Below are positions 8,557 through 40,364 of a stretch of 40,364 nucleotides of DNA, one piece after another. The notes under the pieces were generated by a model. The model was not told where the DNA came from, did no database searches, and saw nothing but the letters and a program-made list of their open reading frames with translations. Origin of the DNA: a virus; IMG/VR virus record IMGVR_UViG_3300038694_000002, positions 1 through 40,364 of that record. One strand, 5' to 3'. The position numbers and the translations under genes are program-made. The first letter of the stretch is position 1; each line of letters starts with the position of its first letter.

Positions 8557-11500
8557 TCACATATACCCAATCTGTTTGTAAAGCGTTTGCCCAACCGGTG
8601 AACGTTGCATCTTATCCAGTTTCTTCCTGGCCTCCGCCGCCCGCAGTTGCAGGGCCAGATCAGGATAGCGTTTGATCAACAATAGTCTGGCCATCTTCTT
8701 GGATTCGCGAAACGCCTTTTCCAAGATCCGTTCCTTCTCGGCAACCGACAGCATTCGATAAGCGTTCAGTCTTACCACGCCCTGAAGCATGAGTCTGGCC
8801 CCCGTGCCGGCAAGGCGAATGTACTCCGAGTATTGATCCGGCGACAGTTTCACGCCGAACACCTTTCGGGTTGGCATACCTGGGAAGTAGTCGACTTCCT
8901 TCATCGCCGCGATGATCGGGTCGTGTTGTCTCTGAGCCACGTAAAATGGCGACAATAGATCTGGGCCAACAGCCCCTTCAAGACGGATCTCATTGCCCAG
9001 AATGTCATAGCGCATCGGCACTTGGCGGGTCATGCCCGGGATGCGACTCTTGATCTTGTCAAGGATGGTTTGAGCGTCGCGCAGTGCCGGGTCGTCTACC
9101 CTCGCCAACTGCGCAAGACCAGTAGGAACAACAGTGCCCAGTAGATTTCTGACATAATACGGCCCATATCGATCTGGGTCAGTGAGTGCATTTACAGCCT
9201 CCGAAATGCCTCTCAACCACGTTTTACTGGTCAAGTTCTTTGATATCGAGATTAGCATTAAGCTTGCCAGGTTGTTCTGATCATCCTCACTCAACGCCTC
9301 CCACACCTCAACCGAGTCGGCGGCGATGCCGAGCAGCATGCCGAGCGGCTCCAGGCGATTGAACGCCACATACTTGTCTCCAATCAGGAATGAGTATGGC
9401 TGCCATCCGTTCGAGCGCATAGCATTGCGTTCCCTTCCATCATCAGGCCCACCGCCGGTGATCAGGCCCTGCGCCGTCAGGTACATGGTGAGCGCGCCGA
9501 TGGACGAGCCGATGAGCATGCGGGACATCGCTTCGTCCCTGGCGATATTGCCGTTCTTACCCAGGAGATCATCGCGAGTCTGCTTGAAAATAGGCGCAAT
9601 GGGTGTCCGCTCGATAGCGAACTTCACAATGTTGGTCGGGGTACGAATAAACGGGATCAATACCCGCATCAGCGGATGCTTGGCGGCCAGGTTCTGGATC
9701 TGCTTGCCGAACTGGCCCAGCTCCTTGGTGAAGGTCTGGTAGTCTGCCCAGGTCTGCGCCTCGTCCAACATCTCCTCGGTGGGAGATTCGCGATACTGCT
9801 GGTATAGGGTGCGGACCTGCGCTGAGTCCTTGGCGTTTCGCAGCGCCTCGCGCATGGCCAACTGATGCAGCTTCTTGGTGCGGGCCACGGACTTGAACAG
9901 TTCATCTCCAGCGAGCAGGGCCCTGCCCGGGGTGCGAATGATACGACCCAGCTTATCAACGGCAGCCGCCCGACCCGGGTTAGTTATGCCCAGCTTCTCG
10001 GCTGAGATGGCCTGATAGCGACGAGCCTCCATCTTGCCTTCACCACTTGGGATCTCGGTATTGAACGCGGTGCGGGCCAGTTTCAGGCCCTTGAAGGCCC
10101 CTTCCAAGGTGCCGGTGGCGTAGCTAACCGCCTCGCGGAAGCTGATCTTGTTACCGCCGTGAAGCGACCCGATGCCGGCAGCCACCCAAGTCTCCAGGTC
10201 AGAGAACAGGGACACCAGGCCGTTCGAGAACGTGTTAACCGCGTGGGTCTGAGGCCCGGACAGTAACGAGTTGATCCAGATCTCCAGCAGCACATCACTG
10301 GTGGTTGCCTTCAGCGACTCGTTGGCGAAGTTGTTGATCTGCCCGGTGGTCTGCATGTGCTCCAGCATGTTCGAGAACGCATCCCGCTGATCCTTACCGC
10401 CAAGGTCATCCAGCAGTCGACCCACATTCTTGATCCTGGCCGTGTCTTTCTTCAGGATGTTGAGCGCTCGACCGGCCTCGGTGGCCAGGCCCTGGTAGGC
10501 TCGAATGATTAACGCAGCCCGCGCACGAGCCGTCTCCAGGGCGATTGCATCCTGGTCTGAGTGAGTCTCCCGATACGCCTTGTTCGCCGCGGTCAGGTCC
10601 TCAGCGGCCCGCACGGCAAGGAACCGGGCACGTTCCAGCTGTTCGGCGTTGCCCGCCCGCCCAATCTTGGTCTTGATCAGGCTCTCCTCGCTCATGCCAA
10701 GCGCAGCCGCCGCTCTCTCGGTGGTTCCCCAGGACCGAACCCCCCGGCGTTGCTTCACGAATTCCTTCTCGAATTCCTGGTTCATTCCCTCAGTGATCTC
10801 CCACACCGCCGCCTCGTTGTCGAGCGCGTCGTTCGGCACCCAGTGTTTTCTGTTGATCGAGCCGGCATACTCGGTATTGGGGCGTTGGTTCTCGAAGCGC
10901 GGCTCATGTTCTGGCGCCTCCATGTAATCCACTTTTCCGATCTTCGCTTCATGGCTCAGCGCGGCTCTTTGTTCCTGCTGATATTTGCGATGCGTGGCGT
11001 GGCGATCAGATAGCCATTCGCGTAGAACGGATGGGTCGATTCGGCTACCCCCAGGCGCGGATATCGCTTCGGTAACGGCGGCGTCGAGGATCCGTTTTCC
11101 CTTGGGGTCTTCGGCCCAGTTGTGGACCGGTCCGGATTCGGTCTCCACCCCGACCATTTGCGCGGATTCGATTCGTTCATTGTCAATGGCCCTCTCGGCG
11201 GCCTGAAATGCATTGTCACCGGTCAGCAGAACGGTGTCCGGACCGATCTTGTGGAAGCCGACACCCGCGCCGAGCTCGTGCTGCAGGGTGTCCATCTCAT
11301 TCTCGTTCAACCCGCCCCGGGTCGTCAGCACAACGGCGTTGTGTTGCGCCGTCGGATCTGGCCTGAACCACGGCACCTGGTCCAGTTGATAGATGTACTG
11401 CAAGCCTCTGGCGTAGGCGCGGACCTGCTGCCGGTTGAACCGTTGTGAAGTGCGAAGCGTGGCGACCCCTGGCAGCTGGCCGCCGAGAGCGTCACCCGAG

Positions 11501-14500
11501 AACCCTGGAAGGCCAAGCACCTTGGACAGCAGGTCGTTCCCTTGCTTGTCTATGATCAGGGCTTTCGTTCCGGCGTCGAATTGCTTGGACTGGGCCACAG
11601 GGAGACTGGCCGCCCAGGTAGAAGTGGTTGGAGAGGGCACCGTGCTGGCCGTCAAACTGCGCGACTGGTCCTGCAACTGCGCAGCGAATTGGGCAGCCTT
11701 ACCGTCTCCGGCGCCGGTCAGTGCGGATTGAATGTGCCGTGGCAGCCAATTCGAGCCGATGGCCTGGTTCACCTCGTCGGTGACCTGACGCAGCATCTCG
11801 GTTCCGAGGCGATAGGACCGCTCGTCCACCATGCCCTTACCCGTGCCGCCCATCTCTTTGAATGTCGGATTGTCAACCACTACGGCATTGGGCCAGCGAT
11901 TCTTGCCTGTCGCCCCGTCCATCAGGTTCTGATAGAACGCCATGACTTTCGGTCCGACGCCGCGCAGGTCCCGGGTGAATGCCTCGGCCTTCTGCGCCGC
12001 GTCGATATTGCCTCGCATCGCCTCCGGATACTGGACGAACTGTGTGGCCACGTCGCTCATTGGCCCACCGTCACGCTCGGCGGTCTGCATCGCGTCCACC
12101 GCCTTGCGCCACCAGGCGAAGTCCCTGGCCGTGTTGGAATCGGTGGACAGGATCGCTAGTGTACGTGCGTACCTATCAAGGACTGAGCGATCGCCATTGG
12201 AAACGATAGCCAGGTATTGTCCGACATCATCATAAAAGCGAAAGGCGATTGGCTGTAAATCCCGCACCTTCGAAACCGCGCTATCGATTCCAGATAGGAC
12301 TTCATCTGGAGACGTGAGGCCCTGCTTTTTTATTTCCGCATAGACTTGACCGTTTGGTTTTTTGAGGGCTTCGAAGTTGGTGTAGGTAAGGTCGCCGGCT
12401 ACACGTCTATCGATGTAATCTGCTCGGAAGGTTCCGGCCATCCCATGTTCTTGAACTCCTCCACCGGTTCGCCCACCGCCAGGGACTTCTGAAGCCACAA
12501 CAGCAGGTCCTCGGGTGACCACCGGCGAATCGCTTGCGGGGGTACTTCTGAGCCGAAACGCCTTGTGTAAAGCCGTTGCGCGTTGCTGAGTTGTAGCTGT
12601 ATTGAGAGCACGTTTCACCTCGTCCATCAGTTGCATGGATCGCGGCATCAGGGCTTTGAGGTAGGCCCGCCCAGTGTCGGTTGATCCGTAGGTGTAATAG
12701 ATCGCATGGAGTTGCGCGAACGCTTCCTTGGCGATCTTTGGGATGTAGGTGGCATCTTCGGCAACCCGCTCGACATACATCATCGGATAGGTCAGATCCC
12801 GCCAGACGCCCATTTCATCCTGGTTACGGTAGACCCTGTTTAACTCCTGAGCGACTGCGCCGGTAGGTTGGAACAGTTCGGATCGAAGCGCGTACTCGTT
12901 TCCAAGATGGTGGCCAAGCTCATGGGCCAGGGCGAAGGTCGGATACTGAGAATCATTGATCTGGAAATGCCCGCCCAGCATGTCGCCGTCTAAGCTGATG
13001 GTTCTGTCACCGTTGGCGTACTCGATATACGCACCGATCGAACCGGTAGCGTTGCCTCGATGGACTGTTACGCCATCCAGACCGATCAAGGTTGCGGACG
13101 GCATGCCCCAGGCCGTGAGGTTCGTCATCGCACGATCGAGCATGACCGCCTGCTGGTAATTGGCCTGATCAATCGTGCCCAGCCGCTCGGCCGAGGTGTC
13201 CCCTGCTTTGCGCCGGGTGACATCGTTTGACAGTAGGGTCAGTCCGTCGCTACTGACCTGCAGGCGCTGTGATTGCGCCGGACCATCCAGCATGGCCTTG
13301 GTGAAGCGGGTTTTCGCTTCGCCCATCTGATCGATCAACGGAGGCAACGGAAGATCAGGAACTTGAACCTCGGGCTTGTACAACTGGGCGAACACCTCGG
13401 CCTGCATAGGACTCTTGAAACTCGCTACAGGCTGACCGTTCGCAACCACGGCGTGCCCCCTGGGGGTTTGCTGCACGGACACGCCTTGCGGGTAGCTCCG
13501 CTGCTGCATGGGGGCATTGACGTTTTGCACCGCCCTGGTCACCGCCTGCTGTTCGGCAGGGGAGGCCTTGATCACCGGGGTGGAACCGGTCAGCGCCTGG
13601 TCGGCCAGTTCCATGGCGCGATTCTGCACCTGCACCGGGTTGTTCTGGGCTTGCTCGGCGATCGGCGGCAACAACCTGGCGGGGTCGTCCCGTTGTGCCT
13701 GTTGCTTACGCGTCTCGACCAGGCCCGTGCGCCTGACGCCGTCCTGTACACCGCTTGGGAGCTGGACCAGCGCGTTAGCGAACGCCCCTTGCATCTGATT
13801 CAACTCTTTGCTCGAAGCCGCGTTGGCCAGCTTAGAAGCGATCAGTTCCTGCTCTATCGATTGCGGCAGATCGAGCGCCGGTTCCATGATGTTGAAGACT
13901 TCGTCTTCCTGAGAGGCCTTCACCTGCTGATCGAGGTCGGCTTGCCGCTGGAGATCCCGATAGGCCTTCTCGACGTCCTGTGATCGCTTAACACCCTGCG
14001 CCTGATCCTCTTCATACTGACGCCACATGAGGTCTTCTTGCGTCTTCTGTGCTCGCTCCTCGCCGTCCCTGGCCTGCCACATGCGTTCCTCTTCGTACTG
14101 GCGGAAGGTGTATTCTTCCTGAAGCTTGACCATATCTTCACGACTTGGCCCCATGGTCTGGTCGGCCATGACTTGCTCTGGATCACCACCCATCGCCATG
14201 TCCTCAGCCTGCGCTTCCATGGGAGAACGGCGAGAGCCGAATGACCCGAACAAGGCACCGGCAAGGAATGATCCTGGAGCAACGTTCAACTCGTCCTTGA
14301 ACGCCTGATATACGTCAGTTCCGAGGATCATAGCCTCAGCCGGCCCTTCGGCAACCTCGGTGACCGCCTCGGCCATACCGACCTGTGTAGCCTTTCCCAA
14401 CCGTCCCAGCTTGCCGATGGGCCCGAACAGTCTAGCGGCGGGCACGGCATTTAACCCTGTAACCGCAAGGCCCTGCTCCAGCGCCGACAGCCTGGCCTGC

Positions 14501-15006
14501 CCGGGTTGCTGTCCGAGTTCTAAAGCCTTCTCGTAAGTTGGCCCGGCCTCCATGGCGCCACCCGCCACACCAGATGCGATGGCGGCGGCCCACCGGGAAC
14601 CCGTGGCCAGGTAACCTAGGCCGCCCATGCCGATACTTAGACCCACTGACGGGAATACCTGGCCAAACCCATAGGCCCACGTCCGAGGATCTTTCAAAAG
14701 CTCGGGATTGTCGTAGAGACGTCCGCGCAGATCAGCCGGCAATGGAGAGTTCGCCATCTCCCGCTTGGCGTCCTGCACTAGAGAGTATCCGTAGCCGGGG
14801 GCAGCCATGTTGACCAGATCACCGGTGGACTGCTTCAGTCCCTCATAGCCATGTTTCAGGCCGAGCTTGAAGGCGTCCCAGTAATCGAACCCGAATCCAC
14901 TGGATCCCCAAAGCTGATCGATCTCGTCGGTGGTGTAACCCTGCTGTCCGTACCACTGGCGGAATTCGGATTCAGATGGGGTGCGATAAGCCTTATAATC
15001 GGCCAT
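8557..15006 (-). CDS. Giant polyvalent virion (ejection) protein with HEXXH metallopeptidase motif
   Basis: 2149 aa, about 16% of the window. Hydrophobic Gly/Ala-rich stretches near residues 90-240 could enter a membrane, and a long Gln/Glu-rich coiled-coil region (about 270-420) follows. The H-E-L-G-H-H motif at residues 695-700 is a zinc metallopeptidase signature. Near residue 1575 the S-L-L-S-G-P-Q-T-H-A-V-N pattern is one I associate with large polyvalent phage proteins; an alpha-helical C-terminal third follows. Position at the end of the virion operon, after Gln-rich injection-type proteins, fits a protein ejected with the DNA, like the giant internal proteins of other podoviruses. Domain limits are approximate. 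A lytic domain could be hidden here but I did not recognise one. Several long + strand frames in this region are shadows. Confidence 0.8.
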   Translation of the reverse strand: MADYKAYRTPSESEFRQWYGQQGYTTDEIDQLWGSSGFGFDYWDAFKLGLKHGYEGLKQSTGDLVNMAAPGYGYSLVQDAKREMANSPLPADLRGRLYDNPELLKDPRTWAYGFGQVFPSVGLSIGMGGLGYLATGSRWAAAIASGVAGGAMEAGPTYEKALELGQQPGQARLSALEQGLAVTGLNAVPAARLFGPIGKLGRLGKATQVGMAEAVTEVAEGPAEAMILGTDVYQAFKDELNVAPGSFLAGALFGSFGSRRSPMEAQAEDMAMGGDPEQVMADQTMGPSREDMVKLQEEYTFRQYEEERMWQARDGEERAQKTQEDLMWRQYEEDQAQGVKRSQDVEKAYRDLQRQADLDQQVKASQEDEVFNIMEPALDLPQSIEQELIASKLANAASSKELNQMQGAFANALVQLPSGVQDGVRRTGLVETRKQQAQRDDPARLLPPIAEQAQNNPVQVQNRAMELADQALTGSTPVIKASPAEQQAVTRAVQNVNAPMQQRSYPQGVSVQQTPRGHAVVANGQPVASFKSPMQAEVFAQLYKPEVQVPDLPLPPLIDQMGEAKTRFTKAMLDGPAQSQRLQVSSDGLTLLSNDVTRRKAGDTSAERLGTIDQANYQQAVMLDRAMTNLTAWGMPSATLIGLDGVTVHRGNATGSIGAYIEYANGDRTISLDGDMLGGHFQINDSQYPTFALAHELGHHLGNEYALRSELFQPTGAVAQELNRVYRNQDEMGVWRDLTYPMMYVERVAEDATYIPKIAKEAFAQLHAIYYTYGSTDTGRAYLKALMPRSMQLMDEVKRALNTATTQQRATALHKAFRLRSTPASDSPVVTRGPAVVASEVPGGGRTGGGVQEHGMAGTFRADYIDRRVAGDLTYTNFEALKKPNGQVYAEIKKQGLTSPDEVLSGIDSAVSKVRDLQPIAFRFYDDVGQYLAIVSNGDRSVLDRYARTLAILSTDSNTARDFAWWRKAVDAMQTAERDGGPMSDVATQFVQYPEAMRGNIDAAQKAEAFTRDLRGVGPKVMAFYQNLMDGATGKNRWPNAVVVDNPTFKEMGGTGKGMVDERSYRLGTEMLRQVTDEVNQAIGSNWLPRHIQSALTGAGDGKAAQFAAQLQDQSRSLTASTVPSPTTSTWAASLPVAQSKQFDAGTKALIIDKQGNDLLSKVLGLPGFSGDALGGQLPGVATLRTSQRFNRQQVRAYARGLQYIYQLDQVPWFRPDPTAQHNAVVLTTRGGLNENEMDTLQHELGAGVGFHKIGPDTVLLTGDNAFQAAERAIDNERIESAQMVGVETESGPVHNWAEDPKGKRILDAAVTEAISAPGGSRIDPSVLREWLSDRHATHRKYQQEQRAALSHEAKIGKVDYMEAPEHEPRFENQRPNTEYAGSINRKHWVPNDALDNEAAVWEITEGMNQEFEKEFVKQRRGVRSWGTTERAAAALGMSEESLIKTKIGRAGNAEQLERARFLAVRAAEDLTAANKAYRETHSDQDAIALETARARAALIIRAYQGLATEAGRALNILKKDTARIKNVGRLLDDLGGKDQRDAFSNMLEHMQTTGQINNFANESLKATTSDVLLEIWINSLLSGPQTHAVNTFSNGLVSLFSDLETWVAAGIGSLHGGNKISFREAVSYATGTLEGAFKGLKLARTAFNTEIPSGEGKMEARRYQAISAEKLGITNPGRAAAVDKLGRIIRTPGRALLAGDELFKSVARTKKLHQLAMREALRNAKDSAQVRTLYQQYRESPTEEMLDEAQTWADYQTFTKELGQFGKQIQNLAAKHPLMRVLIPFIRTPTNIVKFAIERTPIAPIFKQTRDDLLGKNGNIARDEAMSRMLIGSSIGALTMYLTAQGLITGGGPDDGRERNAMRSNGWQPYSFLIGDKYVAFNRLEPLGMLLGIAADSVEVWEALSEDDQNNLASLMLISISKNLTSKTWLRGISEAVNALTDPDRYGPYYVRNLLGTVVPTGLAQLARVDDPALRDAQTILDKIKSRIPGMTRQVPMRYDILGNEIRLEGAVGPDLLSPFYVAQRQHDPIIAAMKEVDYFPGMPTRKVFGVKLSPDQYSEYIRLAGTGARLMLQGVVRLNAYRMLSVAEKERILEKAFRESKKMARLLLIKRYPDLALQLRAAEARKKLDKMQRSPVGQTLYKQIGYM

Positions 15007-34011: not shown

Positions 34012-34296
34012 ATGAGCAACAACTACTACGCAGTGATTCAACTCGGTTATTCGATATTAGGTAGCGGCGAGAGCGCAGAGGCGGCAACCGACGACGCTCA
34101 TGAGTGGGTTGACGGCGACATGAATCTGGTTGACGAAAACCAAGCGGTGGACGGCGATCTGGTGTTGGTGAAGTGCACCAAGGCACTGCACGACGAGGTT
34201 AAGGAAAACGGCGGTGATGTGTTTTATACGCTGCTGGAAAGCGGCCTGTACGGACTGGAAAGCGGCCTGTACGGACTGGATAGAGGGGGAGAATGA
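34012..34296 (+). CDS. Small acidic hypothetical protein
   Basis: 94 aa from the ATG at 34012, chosen for GAGAGG (33998-34003) and the promoter just upstream. A strand (Y-Y-A-V-I-Q-L-G-Y-S-I) and helix (S-A-E-A-A-T-D-D-A-H-E-W-V) are followed by a second strand (D-L-V-L-V-K-C) and helix (A-L-H-D-E-V-K-E-N-G-G-D-V), an alpha-beta pattern seen in small plasmid and phage proteins. The end carries an exact duplication of E-S-G-L-Y-G-L from a 21-bp tandem repeat. The stop overlaps the HTH start (ATGA), so the two genes form a pair. Function unknown. Confidence 0.65.
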   Translation: MSNNYYAVIQLGYSILGSGESAEAATDDAHEWVDGDMNLVDENQAVDGDLVLVKCTKALHDEVKENGGDVFYTLLESGLYGLESGLYGLDRGGE

Positions 34297-34496
34297 ACGC
34301 AGCAGATGCCAGGGAAAAGCTGGGCATCTGCCGCAAGGAGATGGCCGAGCTAATGGGTGTGCATTACGAAACATTGGCAAAATGGGAGCGTGCGCAGCGC
34401 CAGCCGGATAAAGCTGCCGTGCAGTTGATGCGATGGTTGTGCTGGCTACACGGCAAACACCCGCGAGTATTCACCAATGGGCGAAAAGAAATCTAA
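34293..34496 (+). CDS. Helix-turn-helix (XRE/Cro-like) regulator
   Basis: 67 aa. The HTH is formed by C-R-K-E-M-A-E-L-M-G-V-H-Y-E-T-L-A-K-W-E-R-A: the first helix ends at the Gly turn, and the recognition helix is Y-E-T-L-A-K-W-E. A further helix (A-A-V-Q-L-M-R-W-L) follows. This is a minimal Cro/XRE-like DNA-binding protein. It is coupled to the 94-aa gene by ATGA. It probably controls its own promoter or a nearby divergent region. Its stop codon lies inside the inverse core of the attC-like site at 34491. Confidence 0.75.
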   Translation: MNAADAREKLGICRKEMAELMGVHYETLAKWERAQRQPDKAAVQLMRWLCWLHGKHPRVFTNGRKEI

Positions 34497-34602: not shown

Positions 34603-34748
34603 GCCGCGATGATCTGATACGGCAGTTGTGGCTAGTGTATCGGGACATGAGTGATCTCATGCAGGTTGATGACTGGGAGACTGCCGATCTTGATTTGTGG
34701 GGGAACGTCACCGGACATTCTGCCGTACAAAGCAAATTGGGCGGCTAA
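34530..34748 (+). CDS. Small hypothetical protein overlapping an attC-like site
   Basis: 72 aa, starting M-T-D-E-Q-N-T, with AGGA 6 nt upstream. Residues 1-24 are coded within the attC-like element, so the true start may be later. The remainder is an acidic helical stretch (R-R-D-D-L-I-R-Q-L-W-L-V-Y-R-D-M) and W-E-T-A-D-L-D-L-W. No family recognised. Confidence 0.45.
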   Translation: MTDEQNTETPSAADPQGRLEALVSRRDDLIRQLWLVYRDMSDLMQVDDWETADLDLWGNVTGHSAVQSKLGG

Positions 34749-34779
34749 CAGCGGATTATATATCCAGCCATGTGACGAC

Positions 34780-38050: not shown

Positions 38051-38107
38051 AGATCACGTTGATTATGTCGAGTAAGCCATTTGATCGCCGGCTATATAAT
38101 ACGCTAT

Positions 38108-38149
38108 TAGCCGCACACAGCCGAAGCAATGCGCGGCCATTGGTTACGC
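38108..38149 (-). repeat. Degenerate attC-like hairpin after the Gp49-like gene
   Basis: Reading the - strand, GCGTAAC overlaps the gene's TAA stop, and TGGCCGCGCA pairs with TGTGCGGCTA (8 of 10). A GTTRRRY core is not found. It sits where the last attC of the cassette group would be and is probably a decayed or truncated site. Confidence 0.3.
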
Positions 38150-38446
38150 TGCCTCGTGCAGCTTCTGCTTCAGTGCGTAGCCCTCAAGCGCCCAGATCTT
38201 ATCGCGGGCATTGTTCCGGGCGATCTTGCGGCCCAGTTCGGCGTTAAAGTTCTCAGGGCTGGCGCAGGCGCTTTCCCCAGTTACCGTAAAGCCGTTCTCA
38301 AGGGTTAGGCAGCACACAGTCAACTGGCTGCCTGGGAATACGTGATAGTCCTCTCCAGCAATCACTTCATCCAGTCGTTCGGGAGTAACACGCGCGGCGG
38401 TCAGTCCTTTATCCTGAATCTCTTTTTCAATCTCTTGCTCGTTCAT
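38144..38446 (-). CDS. N4 Gp49 / Sf6 gp66-family protein
   Basis: 100 aa. The N-terminus is acidic-helical (M-N-E-Q-E-I-E-K-E-I-Q). The core reads Y-H-V-F-P-G-S-Q-L-T-V-C-C-L-T-L-E-N-G, then G-E-S-A-C-A-S-P-E-N-F-N, then G-R-K-I-A-R-N-N-A. These match the small phage family named after N4 gp49 and Sf6 gene 66, in which F-x-x-x-x-G-x-x-x-A-x-x-x-A is conserved. Molecular function of the family is unknown. It is the most downstream gene of the attC-flanked group and lies directly after site 38463-38549. Confidence 0.75.
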   Translation of the reverse strand: MNEQEIEKEIQDKGLTAARVTPERLDEVIAGEDYHVFPGSQLTVCCLTLENGFTVTGESACASPENFNAELGRKIARNNARDKIWALEGYALKQKLHEAA

Positions 38447-38462
38447 CTTTCAAGGTCTCAGC

Positions 38463-38549
38463 GGCTAGCAAGTAAATCAAGCAGACGCCTTAAACTTCTG
38501 CGCATTGCCCTGGCCGCGTGCAGGGCGCTGCTTATTAAAATCGTTATAC
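38463..38549 (-). repeat. attC-like recombination site (87 bp)
   Basis: On the - strand: inverse core GTATAAC (overlapping the stop TAA of the zinc-ribbon-like gene), inner arms AATAAGCAG and CTGCTTGATT, which pair except for one extra base, then ACTTGCTAGCC as the core end. Ends with the same TTACTTGCTAG found in the site at 38831. About 87 bp, a normal attC length. Core boxes deviate from consensus at one or two positions. Confidence 0.55.
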
Positions 38550-38807
38550 GCATCCACTATCAGGTAATTTTGAGTCTAGATTATCAATTGATTCAATGTG
38601 TTTTGCTCCGCATTTTTGACATTCGTACGTTGAGTCGTACTCACCAGGCGAAATGCATTTCCATACGTGCGCATTAATCGGATAAATTTCGTGTATTGAG
38701 CAACCAGATCCATCACAAAATTCAACTTGTGCGTTTCCATTCTTTATCACGGCTCTACCGTACCCGTATGGAGTGCAAACAAAATCGCCTATTTCTATTG
38801 CTGTCAT
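38544..38807 (-). CDS. Small zinc-ribbon-like protein
   Basis: 87 aa from the ATG at 38807; an in-frame GTG at 38849 would extend it into the neighbouring attC-like site. It begins M-T-A-I-E-I-G-D-F-V. The first part is beta-like (G-R-A-V-I-K-N-G-N-A-Q-V-E-F-C). The C-terminal part has W-K-C, Y-E-C-Q-K-C-G, I-E-S-I-D-N and G-C-V, four or more Cys that could bind zinc. I recall similar small proteins in enterobacterial phages and prophages without assigned role. The stop codon lies inside the inverse core of the site downstream, as in integron cassettes. Confidence 0.6.
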   Translation of the reverse strand: MTAIEIGDFVCTPYGYGRAVIKNGNAQVEFCDGSGCSIHEIYPINAHVWKCISPGEYDSTYECQKCGAKHIESIDNLDSKLPDSGCV

Positions 38808-38830
38808 ATCGTATAACCAGTCATCTCCGC

Positions 38831-38916
38831 GCCTAGCAAGTAATTCCACCGGACGCGGAATAGCCCGCGCTTCGCATCTGGCCGCATTCAGCGCACCGGT
38901 GAATACGCTGTTGGGC
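38831..38916 (-). repeat. attC-like recombination site (86 bp)
   Basis: On the - strand: inverse core GCCCAAC (38916-38910, a perfect RYYYAAC, two bases after the MazG-like stop), inner arms ATTCACCGG and CCGGTGGAAT, complementary except for one extra base, and core GCTAGGC (38837-38831, one mismatch to GTTRRRY). Arms enclose about 45 nt. Confidence 0.65.
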
Positions 38917-38918
38917 GT

Positions 38919-39203
38919 CTAAATGTGCCGCCCCCGTGTGCCTCGCTGTTCGTTCAGCTTCATCTTGGCCTGTATCGTGGAGGCAAGGTCAATCCCGTGA
39001 GTGTGGGCAAGGTCGGCAGTGCGCAGAATTATGTCTGCCAGCTCCGTGCCAAATTCCTCGGTCGGTTCATCGCCGCGGCATTCGTTCACAGCCTCGCCGA
39101 CTTCGGAACCGATGAGCGCTAGCGCCTCCAGTACGGTCTTGTTATGCCAGCCCATACGCTCGACCCAATCATGCTGCTTTGCTGCAATTTCATTAATGTC
39201 CAT
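38919..39203 (-). CDS. MazG-like nucleotide pyrophosphohydrolase
   Basis: 94 aa, a single all-alpha MazG domain. The metal-binding pattern E34-V-G-E37 followed by E54-L-A-D57 is the ExxE...ExxD signature, with the preceding helix K-T-V-L-E-A-L-A-L-I-G-S typical of the family. It should hydrolyse (d)NTPs to monophosphates; phage MazG proteins are thought to adjust nucleotide or alarmone pools in the infected cell. GGAGAG lies 5-10 nt before the ATG. The gene is flanked on both sides by attC-like sites (39227-39285 upstream, 38831-38916 downstream), making a complete cassette-like unit. Confidence 0.8.
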   Translation of the reverse strand: MDINEIAAKQHDWVERMGWHNKTVLEALALIGSEVGEAVNECRGDEPTEEFGTELADIILRTADLAHTHGIDLASTIQAKMKLNEQRGTRGRHI

Positions 39204-39226
39204 CGTTCTCTCCGTTTGATGGCAAC

Positions 39227-39285
39227 GCCCAACCAGTTATTCCAGCGGAGCCGCTACCGTGTCCCGCTGAATGTCATCGTTAATT
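39227..39285 (-). repeat. attC-like recombination site (exactly 59 bp)
   Basis: On the - strand: AATTAAC (39285-39279, one mismatch to RYYYAAC), inner arms GACATTCAGCGG and CCGCTGGAATAAC, which pair with one extra base, and core GTTGGGC (39233-39227, perfect GTTRRRY). Total 59 bp, the size of the classic 59-base element. It lies 20-25 nt before the MazG-like gene; whatever gene preceded it is missing. Confidence 0.7.
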
Positions 39286-39432: not shown

Positions 39433-39960
39433 ATGAAGCGGAACCTGATTTGTGCTGATAAGGCGTTATTCCATTACGAGGATTACGATGATTCGAATCG
39501 CGTGGAAGGACCCAATGAGAAAATGCGCGGCGATTGCACCGAACTGCGGGGTGACTGTAGCTATCTGCGGGGTGACTGCACCGATCTGCGGGGTGACTGC
39601 GCCGAACTGCGGGGTGACTGTAGCCATCTGCGGGGAGATTGCACCGGACTGCGGGGTGACTGCACCGGACTGCGGGGTGACTGCACCGGACTGCGGGGTG
39701 TCTGTACAAGACTGCGCGGTGACTGCACCGATCTGCGGGGTGACGGTACCGATCTGCGGGGTGACTGTACCGGACTGCGGGGTGACTGCACCGGACTGCG
39801 GGGTGACTGTACCGAACTGCGGGCTGACTGTACCGGACTGCGGGGTGTCTGTACCGGACTGCGGGGTGACTGCACCGGACTTAGCGGGAATATTGACGAG
39901 TGCTGTTTGACCGATGCAGAACGCAAAGGCGGAATTGATATAAGGGAGCTTGTGAGATGA
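39433..39960 (+). CDS. Cysteine-rich heptapeptide-repeat protein (paralogue A)
   Basis: 175 aa: a unique N-terminal segment of 30 residues (M-K-R-N-L-I-C-A-D-K-A), 17 heptads of L-R-G-D-C-[TS]-x, and the same 26-residue tail as the other copies (L-S-G-N-I-D-E-C, then D-A-E-R-K-G-G-I-D-I). It is half the length of paralogue C, so copy number differs between otherwise similar genes. One heptad has Gly and another Ala in place of a conserved residue. GGAGAT precedes the ATG and a good promoter lies upstream, making this the first gene of the tandem set. The stop overlaps the next start (ATGA). Function unknown. Confidence 0.85.
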   Translation: MKRNLICADKALFHYEDYDDSNRVEGPNEKMRGDCTELRGDCSYLRGDCTDLRGDCAELRGDCSHLRGDCTGLRGDCTGLRGDCTGLRGVCTRLRGDCTDLRGDGTDLRGDCTGLRGDCTGLRGDCTELRADCTGLRGVCTGLRGDCTGLSGNIDECCLTDAERKGGIDIRELVR

Positions 39961-40364
39961 AGCGGAACCTGATTTGTACTGGCAAGGCGTTATTCCATTA
40001 CGAGGATTCGAATCGCGTGGAAGGACCCAATGATAAAATGCGCGGTGACTGTAGCAACCTGTGGGGTTACTGCACCGGACTGCGGGGTGACTGCACCGGA
40101 CTGCGGGGTGACTGCACCGGACTGCGGGGTGACTGCACCGGACTGCGGGGTGACTGTAGTGGTCTGTGGGGCGACTGCACCGGACTGCGGGGTGACTGCA
40201 CCGGACTGCGGGGTGACTGCACCGGACTGCGGGGTGACTGCACCGGACTGCGGGGTGACTGTAGTGGTCTGTGGGGTGACTGCACCGGACTGCGGGGTGA
40301 CTGCACCGGACTGCGGGGTGACTGCACCGGACTGCGGGGTGACTGTACCGGACTGCGGGGTGAC
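39957..40364 (+). CDS. Heptapeptide-repeat protein, 5' part (paralogue B, cut by the window edge)
   Basis: 136 codons without a stop up to the right edge: an N-terminal segment identical to paralogue C over 32 residues, then 15 heptads and the start of a sixteenth. The start is set by the ATGA overlap with paralogue A. It should continue into the 104-residue piece at 2-316. Direct edge-to-edge joining is out of repeat register by 5 nt, so some repeat sequence is missing or collapsed. Confidence 0.8.
   Translation, partial: MKRNLICTGKALFHYEDSNRVEGPNDKMRGDCSNLWGYCTGLRGDCTGLRGDCTGLRGDCTGLRGDCSGLWGDCTGLRGDCTGLRGDCTGLRGDCTGLRGDCSGLWGDCTGLRGDCTGLRGDCTGLRGDCTGLRGD

Follow-up and report, generated by a model that had tools for sequence, protein, structure and literature searches.

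Antisense gene cassettes at an attC array in an uncultivated phage genome and at related viral loci

Integrons are usually viewed as platforms of bacterial gene capture: the cassette genes lie in the sense orientation and are read from a promoter at attI. In the sedentary chromosomal integrons of Gammaproteobacteria the array lies on the attI side, upstream of intI, and the cassette genes follow the polarity of their attC sites and diverge from intI. CALINs, that is, groups of at least two attC sites within 4 kb and with no intI nearby, have been described in the virulent phages TJE1, PH101 and P12002L (Qi et al. 2023, PMC9892861), and that article reports that five of six tested phage attC sites recombine with IntI1, the sites of PH101 (also called H101) included, describes methyltransferase cassettes and proposes illegitimate or homologous recombination as the route by which the phage arrays were acquired. 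The existence of phage CALINs, the activity of their sites and their methyltransferase cargo are already published. Another arrangement, in which intI runs with the array, defines the 'reverse' integron of Treponema denticola (Coleman 2004, cited in PMC4909258).

The locus described here lies in the IMG/VR record IMGVR_UViG_3300038694_000002, and the window that we analysed is this entire virus record of 40,364 bases, whose genes include those for a terminase, DNA polymerase, helicase and primase, all of phage type. Like the phage CALINs of PMC9892861, it carries a cluster of attC sites without intI. The sections of that article consulted describe neither a bias of gene direction relative to attC, whereas we find PH101 to be antisense and TJE1 to be sense, nor a single cassette common to unrelated phages, which the gp49 cassette of the window is. 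A search limited to open-access papers found no account of phage cassettes having a biased gene direction, and the antisense, intI-directed arrangement in phages is new as far as we could check.

attC sites of the window

An earlier note made from the letters of this DNA had proposed three attC-like sites of 87, 86 and 59 bp, and these lie exactly where it placed them. We add a fourth site and a degenerate core:

38463-38549, + strand: attC1, 87 nt, R'' GGCTAGC and R' GTTATAC, part of the gp49 cassette, 30.0 bits
38831-38916, + strand: attC2, 86 nt, R'' GCCTAGC and R' GTTGGGC, part of the zinc-ribbon cassette, 34.1 bits
39227-39285, + strand: attC3, 59 nt, R'' GCCCAAC and R' GTTAATT, part of the MazG cassette, 26.1 bits
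34491-34602, - strand: attC4, 112 nt, the top score of the window, 39.8 bits
38106-38112, + strand: degenerate core ATTAGCC, left border of the gp49 cassette (GTTAGCC at the related locus L034)

The scores come from a covariance scan without gaps which, together with an Infernal covariance model, was built from one alignment and structure of 44 attC sites of gammaproteobacterial chromosomal integrons, the genomes having been located through the IntI gene. We wrote the ungapped scan because Infernal alone finds attC3 (20.8 bits, E=0.009) yet largely misses the sites with long loops, giving only a partial match of 8.2 bits to attC2 and not reporting attC1, which we attribute to long loops and altered R'' boxes; Infernal recovered all three attCs of the TJE1 CALIN. 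Training exclusively on bacterial integron attCs, with no phage DNA, avoids circularity in the scan. A first, rule-based version of the scanner was dropped for its poor separation of real sites from noise. Only attC1 to attC4 exceeded 20 bits in the window, the fifth best place reaching 13.7 bits in the 38-kb part scanned, and the maximum was 17.7 bits among 12 Markov-generated sequences, each 40 kb long, and 15.7 bits in about 131 kb of real phage DNA free of attC sites.

All four sites possess R''/R' cores, L''/L' arms, an extrahelical base in L'' and a covariance score above background, and the inner arms of attC1 to attC3 are complementary apart from one extra base, as the earlier note had said. 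Its description of a CALIN without integrase in a phage is also upheld, since three attC sites fall within 0.8 kb and no match to the integron integrase profile TIGR02249 was found anywhere in the record; the window thus does not hold a complete integron, which would comprise intI and attI. It is extremely improbable that the three sites owe their likeness to attC to chance and are ordinary imperfect palindromes, either terminators or repeats. The bottom strands of attC1 and attC2 do fold no better than shuffled sequences (z of -0.13 and -0.08), as this explanation would have it; the bottom strand of attC4 folds as an attC (z = -2.75), and that of attC3 has a z of -1.09. The scores of 26-34 bits lie well above the null maximum, however, in a model made without phage DNA; a search of the window against Rfam at gathering thresholds matched no family; and both the complementarity of R'' and R' across the MazG gene and the exact unit shared with another phage, presented below, speak against chance.

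In attC1 and attC2 the AAC of R'' is changed to AGC (CTAGC for CTAAC), whereas attC3 is intact, as is attC1 of L034, which has GGCTAAC, scores 30.7 bits with Infernal and folds with a z of -2.06. The sequences suggest that the array is partly decayed and possibly static now, and attC1 and attC2 may be inactive at present. Positions 38456-38488 and 38824-38856, in the regions of attC1 and attC2, share 33 nt with 82% identity, including the AAC to AGC change in R'', and judging from this likeness half of one site may be a copy from the other.

The polarity of attC4 is opposite to that of attC1 to attC3. It lies within a cluster of + strand genes, and a + strand ORF at 34293-34496, HTH-like by eye, has its 3' end inside the site. 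About 140 nt beyond attC4, at 34743-34749, there is a GGCTAAC box complementary to the attC4 end GTTAGCC, as expected of a further cassette end; a full attC was not detected at that place. Elsewhere in the record, positions 39433-40364 and 1-1109 consist of a 21-nt unit repeated in arrays (with about 70-91% matches) that extend past both record ends and encode LRGDCTG repeats in at least two tandem ORFs, and the record may be circular or broken within this repeat. A single - strand ORF of 2149 aa occupies 8557-15006.

Cassette units, their polarity and exchange

The cores delimit three units, each with one gene:

38107-38543, + strand: gp49 cassette, from TTAGCC through attC1 to the G of its core; gene antisense; 86% identical to positions 53419-53857 of phage contig G001
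38544-38910, + strand: zinc-ribbon cassette, cut points from the attC1 and attC2 cores; gene antisense
38911-39279, + strand: MazG cassette, cut points from the attC2 and attC3 cores; gene antisense
38144-38446, - strand: gp49 gene of the Phage_gp49_66 family (PF13876, E=6.9e-33)
38544-38807, - strand: gene of a zinc-ribbon-like protein of 87 aa, with a CxxC...C pattern by eye
38919-39203, - strand: gene of a MazG-like nucleotide pyrophosphohydrolase (PHROG 3301, E=1.9e-21; weak match to Pfam MazG)

The R'' of attC3 (GCCCAAC) exactly complements the start of the MazG cassette (GTTGGGC of attC2). This complementarity between R'' and the start of the same cassette shows one change in the gp49 cassette and is absent from the zinc-ribbon cassette, where the complement of the start, GTATAAC, is found just outside attC2 at 38811-38817. 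The far GTTATAC whose complement lies at these positions was considered as the core of attC2 and rejected, the core with normal spacing giving a better score and a better fold.

The zinc-ribbon protein had no Pfam or PHROG match and no relative in the viral contigs. Relatives of the MazG-like protein occur at L003, L012, L017 and L018 with attC-like sites on their flanks, and a search with the MazG alignment in genome contigs gave nine matches. Vibrio integrons reportedly contain an iMazG cassette (attributed to Robinson, 2007), a MazG-like enzyme carried as an integron cassette as in the window. The gp49 protein is 93% identical in amino acids to its relative at L034, and further gp49 relatives stand beside attC sites at L051, L053, L054, L070 and L080, as at L034 itself, in arrays of up to ten, whose neighbours are phage genes for single-strand binding proteins, exonucleases or polymerases according to inspection of their translations.

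The asymmetry of an attC site lies in the extra base, which the top strand has in its L'' arm. By this rule attC1, attC2 and attC3 belong to the + strand, where their cores read GTTATAC, GTTGGGC and GTTAATT, and on the - strand the same scan gives them -10.9, -22.5 and -11.1 bits; the + strand of attC2 folds to a full attC hairpin. Scanning both strands therefore bears out the attC layout that the earlier note proposed, and contradicts its placing of the sites along the - strand genes. What it said of the extent of the array was right for the three sites, and it missed attC4, the ATTAGCC core and the fact that gp49 is itself in a cassette. Because the three sites are read on the + strand, the gp49, zinc-ribbon and MazG genes, all on the - strand, are antisense to attC polarity, and not along it as in cassettes of the bacterial type.

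The + polarity is shown independently by L034, a locus of G001, a phage contig of 55.8 kb otherwise unrelated to the window phage. The DNA of the two phages has one stretch in common, 38107-38543, which is 86% identical, besides which attC2 weakly matches attC1 of G001; beyond this stretch their proteins do not match except for one marginal case (E=1e-4). On the left the stretch begins with the first base behind the cut point in the core (ATTAGCC in the window, GTTAGCC in G001), and its right end is the G of the attC1 core, with the alignment continuing for three bases since both cores read GTTA. The shared stretch is thus the gp49 gene plus attC1, a single + strand cassette, and this shows the polarity by itself: if the polarity were -, attC1 would stay behind and gp49 would move together with the site at its opposite flank, which the two phages do not share. 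Bounded by G/TT at both ends and containing one attC, the gp49 cassette behaves as a unit of transfer, and the predicted gain or loss of cassettes at this point agrees with G001 sharing exactly one cassette with those borders.

Seven pairs of viral loci likewise share one isolated stretch with both ends at most 12 nt from attC cut sites in both members, where the density of cut sites predicts about 0.3; some of these pairs depend on one another, three forming one trio (L246, L250, L257) and two involving near-copies (L179, L196). One of these pairs joins an intI-free locus (L053) to an intI-bearing one (L306) through an 805-nt stretch with a C5 methyltransferase, at 95.8% identity. Besides gp49 and several DNA methyltransferases, viral cassettes were found to hold a DHH phosphoesterase, HNH, one Acb2/Tad1 hairpin protein and one Lar-like protein, and it is likely from these matches to DNA methyltransferases, an Acb2/Tad1 hairpin domain and Lar-type restriction alleviation that phage cassettes carry counter-defence genes.

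We consider it highly probable that the locus is a CALIN in a phage operon, whose units from G/TT to G/TT (gp49, zinc-ribbon and MazG) are cassettes exchangeable by an IntI acting in trans. Such an integrase, from the host or from another phage, would cut the folded bottom (-) strand of attC, which would become available during replication or transcription, and would insert or remove whole cassettes at G/TT; the cassettes would be expressed from the promoter of the phage operon rather than from an integron promoter. It is unlikely that the gp49 unit instead owes its transfer to homologous recombination at short stretches of common sequence, without an integrase. The attC arms are partly alike between sites and could offer such short homologies. 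However, the left border begins immediately after the cut point, where the core alone is common to other attCs, both borders fall exactly at G/TT, and the seven further pairs have borders of the same kind.

Antisense cassettes and integron integrases in viral contigs

The first arrays were located through MazG and gp49, and the genes there mostly opposed attC polarity. The test was repeated with a DNA pattern for canonical attC sites that ignores gene direction, taking IMG/VR loci among the matches listed. In the first 80 loci among those matches the neighbouring genes were opposite to attC in 69, the same in 3 and mixed in 8, with 109 cassette genes opposite and 10 the same, seven of the latter in one contig. 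Another 40 loci from the same scan gave 31 opposite, 3 the same and 6 mixed (78 genes against 6), which brings the 120 attC-bearing loci among the matches listed to 100 opposite, 6 the same and 14 mixed, and their cassette genes to 187 opposite and 16 the same. Identical treatment of 19 bacterial integron loci, almost all from gammaproteobacterial integrons, yielded 107 genes in the same direction and 9 opposite. Fisher's exact test between viral and bacterial sets gave p of about 1e-55 for genes and 2e-15 for loci under an assumption of independence that is not fully true. DNA similarity links 35 of the first 80 loci, and when these 80 were reduced to 41 sequence clusters the figures were 34 opposite, 2 the same and 5 mixed. 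Cassette genes of viral contigs are thus antisense as a rule.

The length of open reading frames is nearly uninformative on the coding strand, the antisense frame being longer in 224 of 413 cases, and we therefore used homology to assign it. For 38 dissimilar viral cassettes we compared the longest ORFs of the two strands: those on the antisense strand matched 16 PHROG and 8 Pfam families, and those on the sense strand matched none of either. Among described phages, H101 (PH101) has four attCs of + polarity at about 75.9-78.0 kb and all annotated genes there are on the - strand, whereas the cassettes of the published CALIN of TJE1 are sense, against the rule. Some of the IMG/VR contigs, which are uncultivated, may be host DNA; with a single profile we detected a terminase in 21 of 43 attC contigs and in 6 of 36 intI contigs, which supports a phage origin for only part of them.

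The sense cassettes of TJE1, and the fit of the window sites to a model built on bacterial attCs, would accord with an ordinary bacterial integron fragment brought in by illegitimate or homologous recombination and having no special phage polarity. We hold this origin to be very unlikely for the array of the window, given that bacterial cassettes are sense by 107 to 9 and viral ones antisense by the totals above, and that one of its cassettes contains a typical phage gene (gp49, PF13876) in common with an unrelated phage.

The earlier note had named host integron integrases as the source of recombinase, and they stay as one option; viral contigs encode IntI too. Two of 40 attC-bearing viral records tested did so, and a scan with these two IntI proteins found relatives in 222 IMG/VR stretches, far above the few phage integrons published. 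Of 80 stretches kept from these, 50 had attC sites upstream of intI, and almost all of these sites have the bacterial orientation, away from intI. In these 50 loci with arrays the upstream genes ran toward intI in 47, were mixed in 3 and diverged in none, and the cassette genes of viral intI loci were co-directional with intI in 44 cases and divergent in 6. Viral cassette genes hence oppose attC and run toward intI, unlike those of the gammaproteobacterial integrons, with which the viral loci share attC architecture and the placing of the array on the attI side of intI. As in the 'reverse' integron of T. denticola, intI and cassette genes share one direction. In T. denticola it is intI itself that is inverted, and the cassettes are sense to attC. 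Compared with that arrangement, the viral loci have normal intI-attC geometry and inverted genes inside the cassettes.

Of 57 genes scanned that lie directly after intI, 24 matched PHROG 1, the phage integrases; others encode single-strand binding, portal and tail proteins, and in G254 a GemA-like protein by eye. In a phylogeny of IntI the viral and bacterial proteins were clustered yet interleaved (6 changes), with strongly biased sampling. At one locus (G268; L301 2411-3745) a cassette of about 669 nt adjoining intI occurs in two identical tandem copies, and the exactness of this duplication suggests recent integrase activity. The duplicated cassette has plausible ORFs in the sense direction, an exception to the antisense layout, and G268 was accordingly rejected as a clean case of genes toward intI.

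Two causes of the antisense bias were weighed. The order operon, cassettes, attI and intI, in a single direction in temperate phages, would favour reversed genes. A doubtful though possible cause is that attC bottom strands lie on the lagging-strand template while phage genes are co-directional with the forks, which would also fit lytic phages without intI. In chromosomal integrons the bottom strands do lie preferentially on the lagging template. Operon order alone, however, would explain the bias in intI-bearing phages.

Viral and bacterial cassette pools

We lean toward the view that phages keep an integron world of their own, in which temperate operons run from cassettes through attI and intI to a phage integrase, an antisense pool of cassettes with counter-defence cargo is swapped between unrelated phages, and this pool stays apart from that of bacteria because cassettes of the wrong polarity are silent in phages and bacteria alike. 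Selection for reversed genes would separate the phage from the bacterial pool, and phages free of intI, such as that of the window, would carry cassettes drawn from the pool of temperate phages.

These results indicate a large viral branch of integrons with inverted genes in which, where intI is present, the array is read into the integrase gene. Such a branch would explain clean swaps of single small genes between unrelated phages, anti-restriction and counter-defence genes included, and polarity is predicted to act as a barrier between the cassette pools of phages and bacteria; and inferring the direction of a cassette gene from attC polarity goes wrong in phages.
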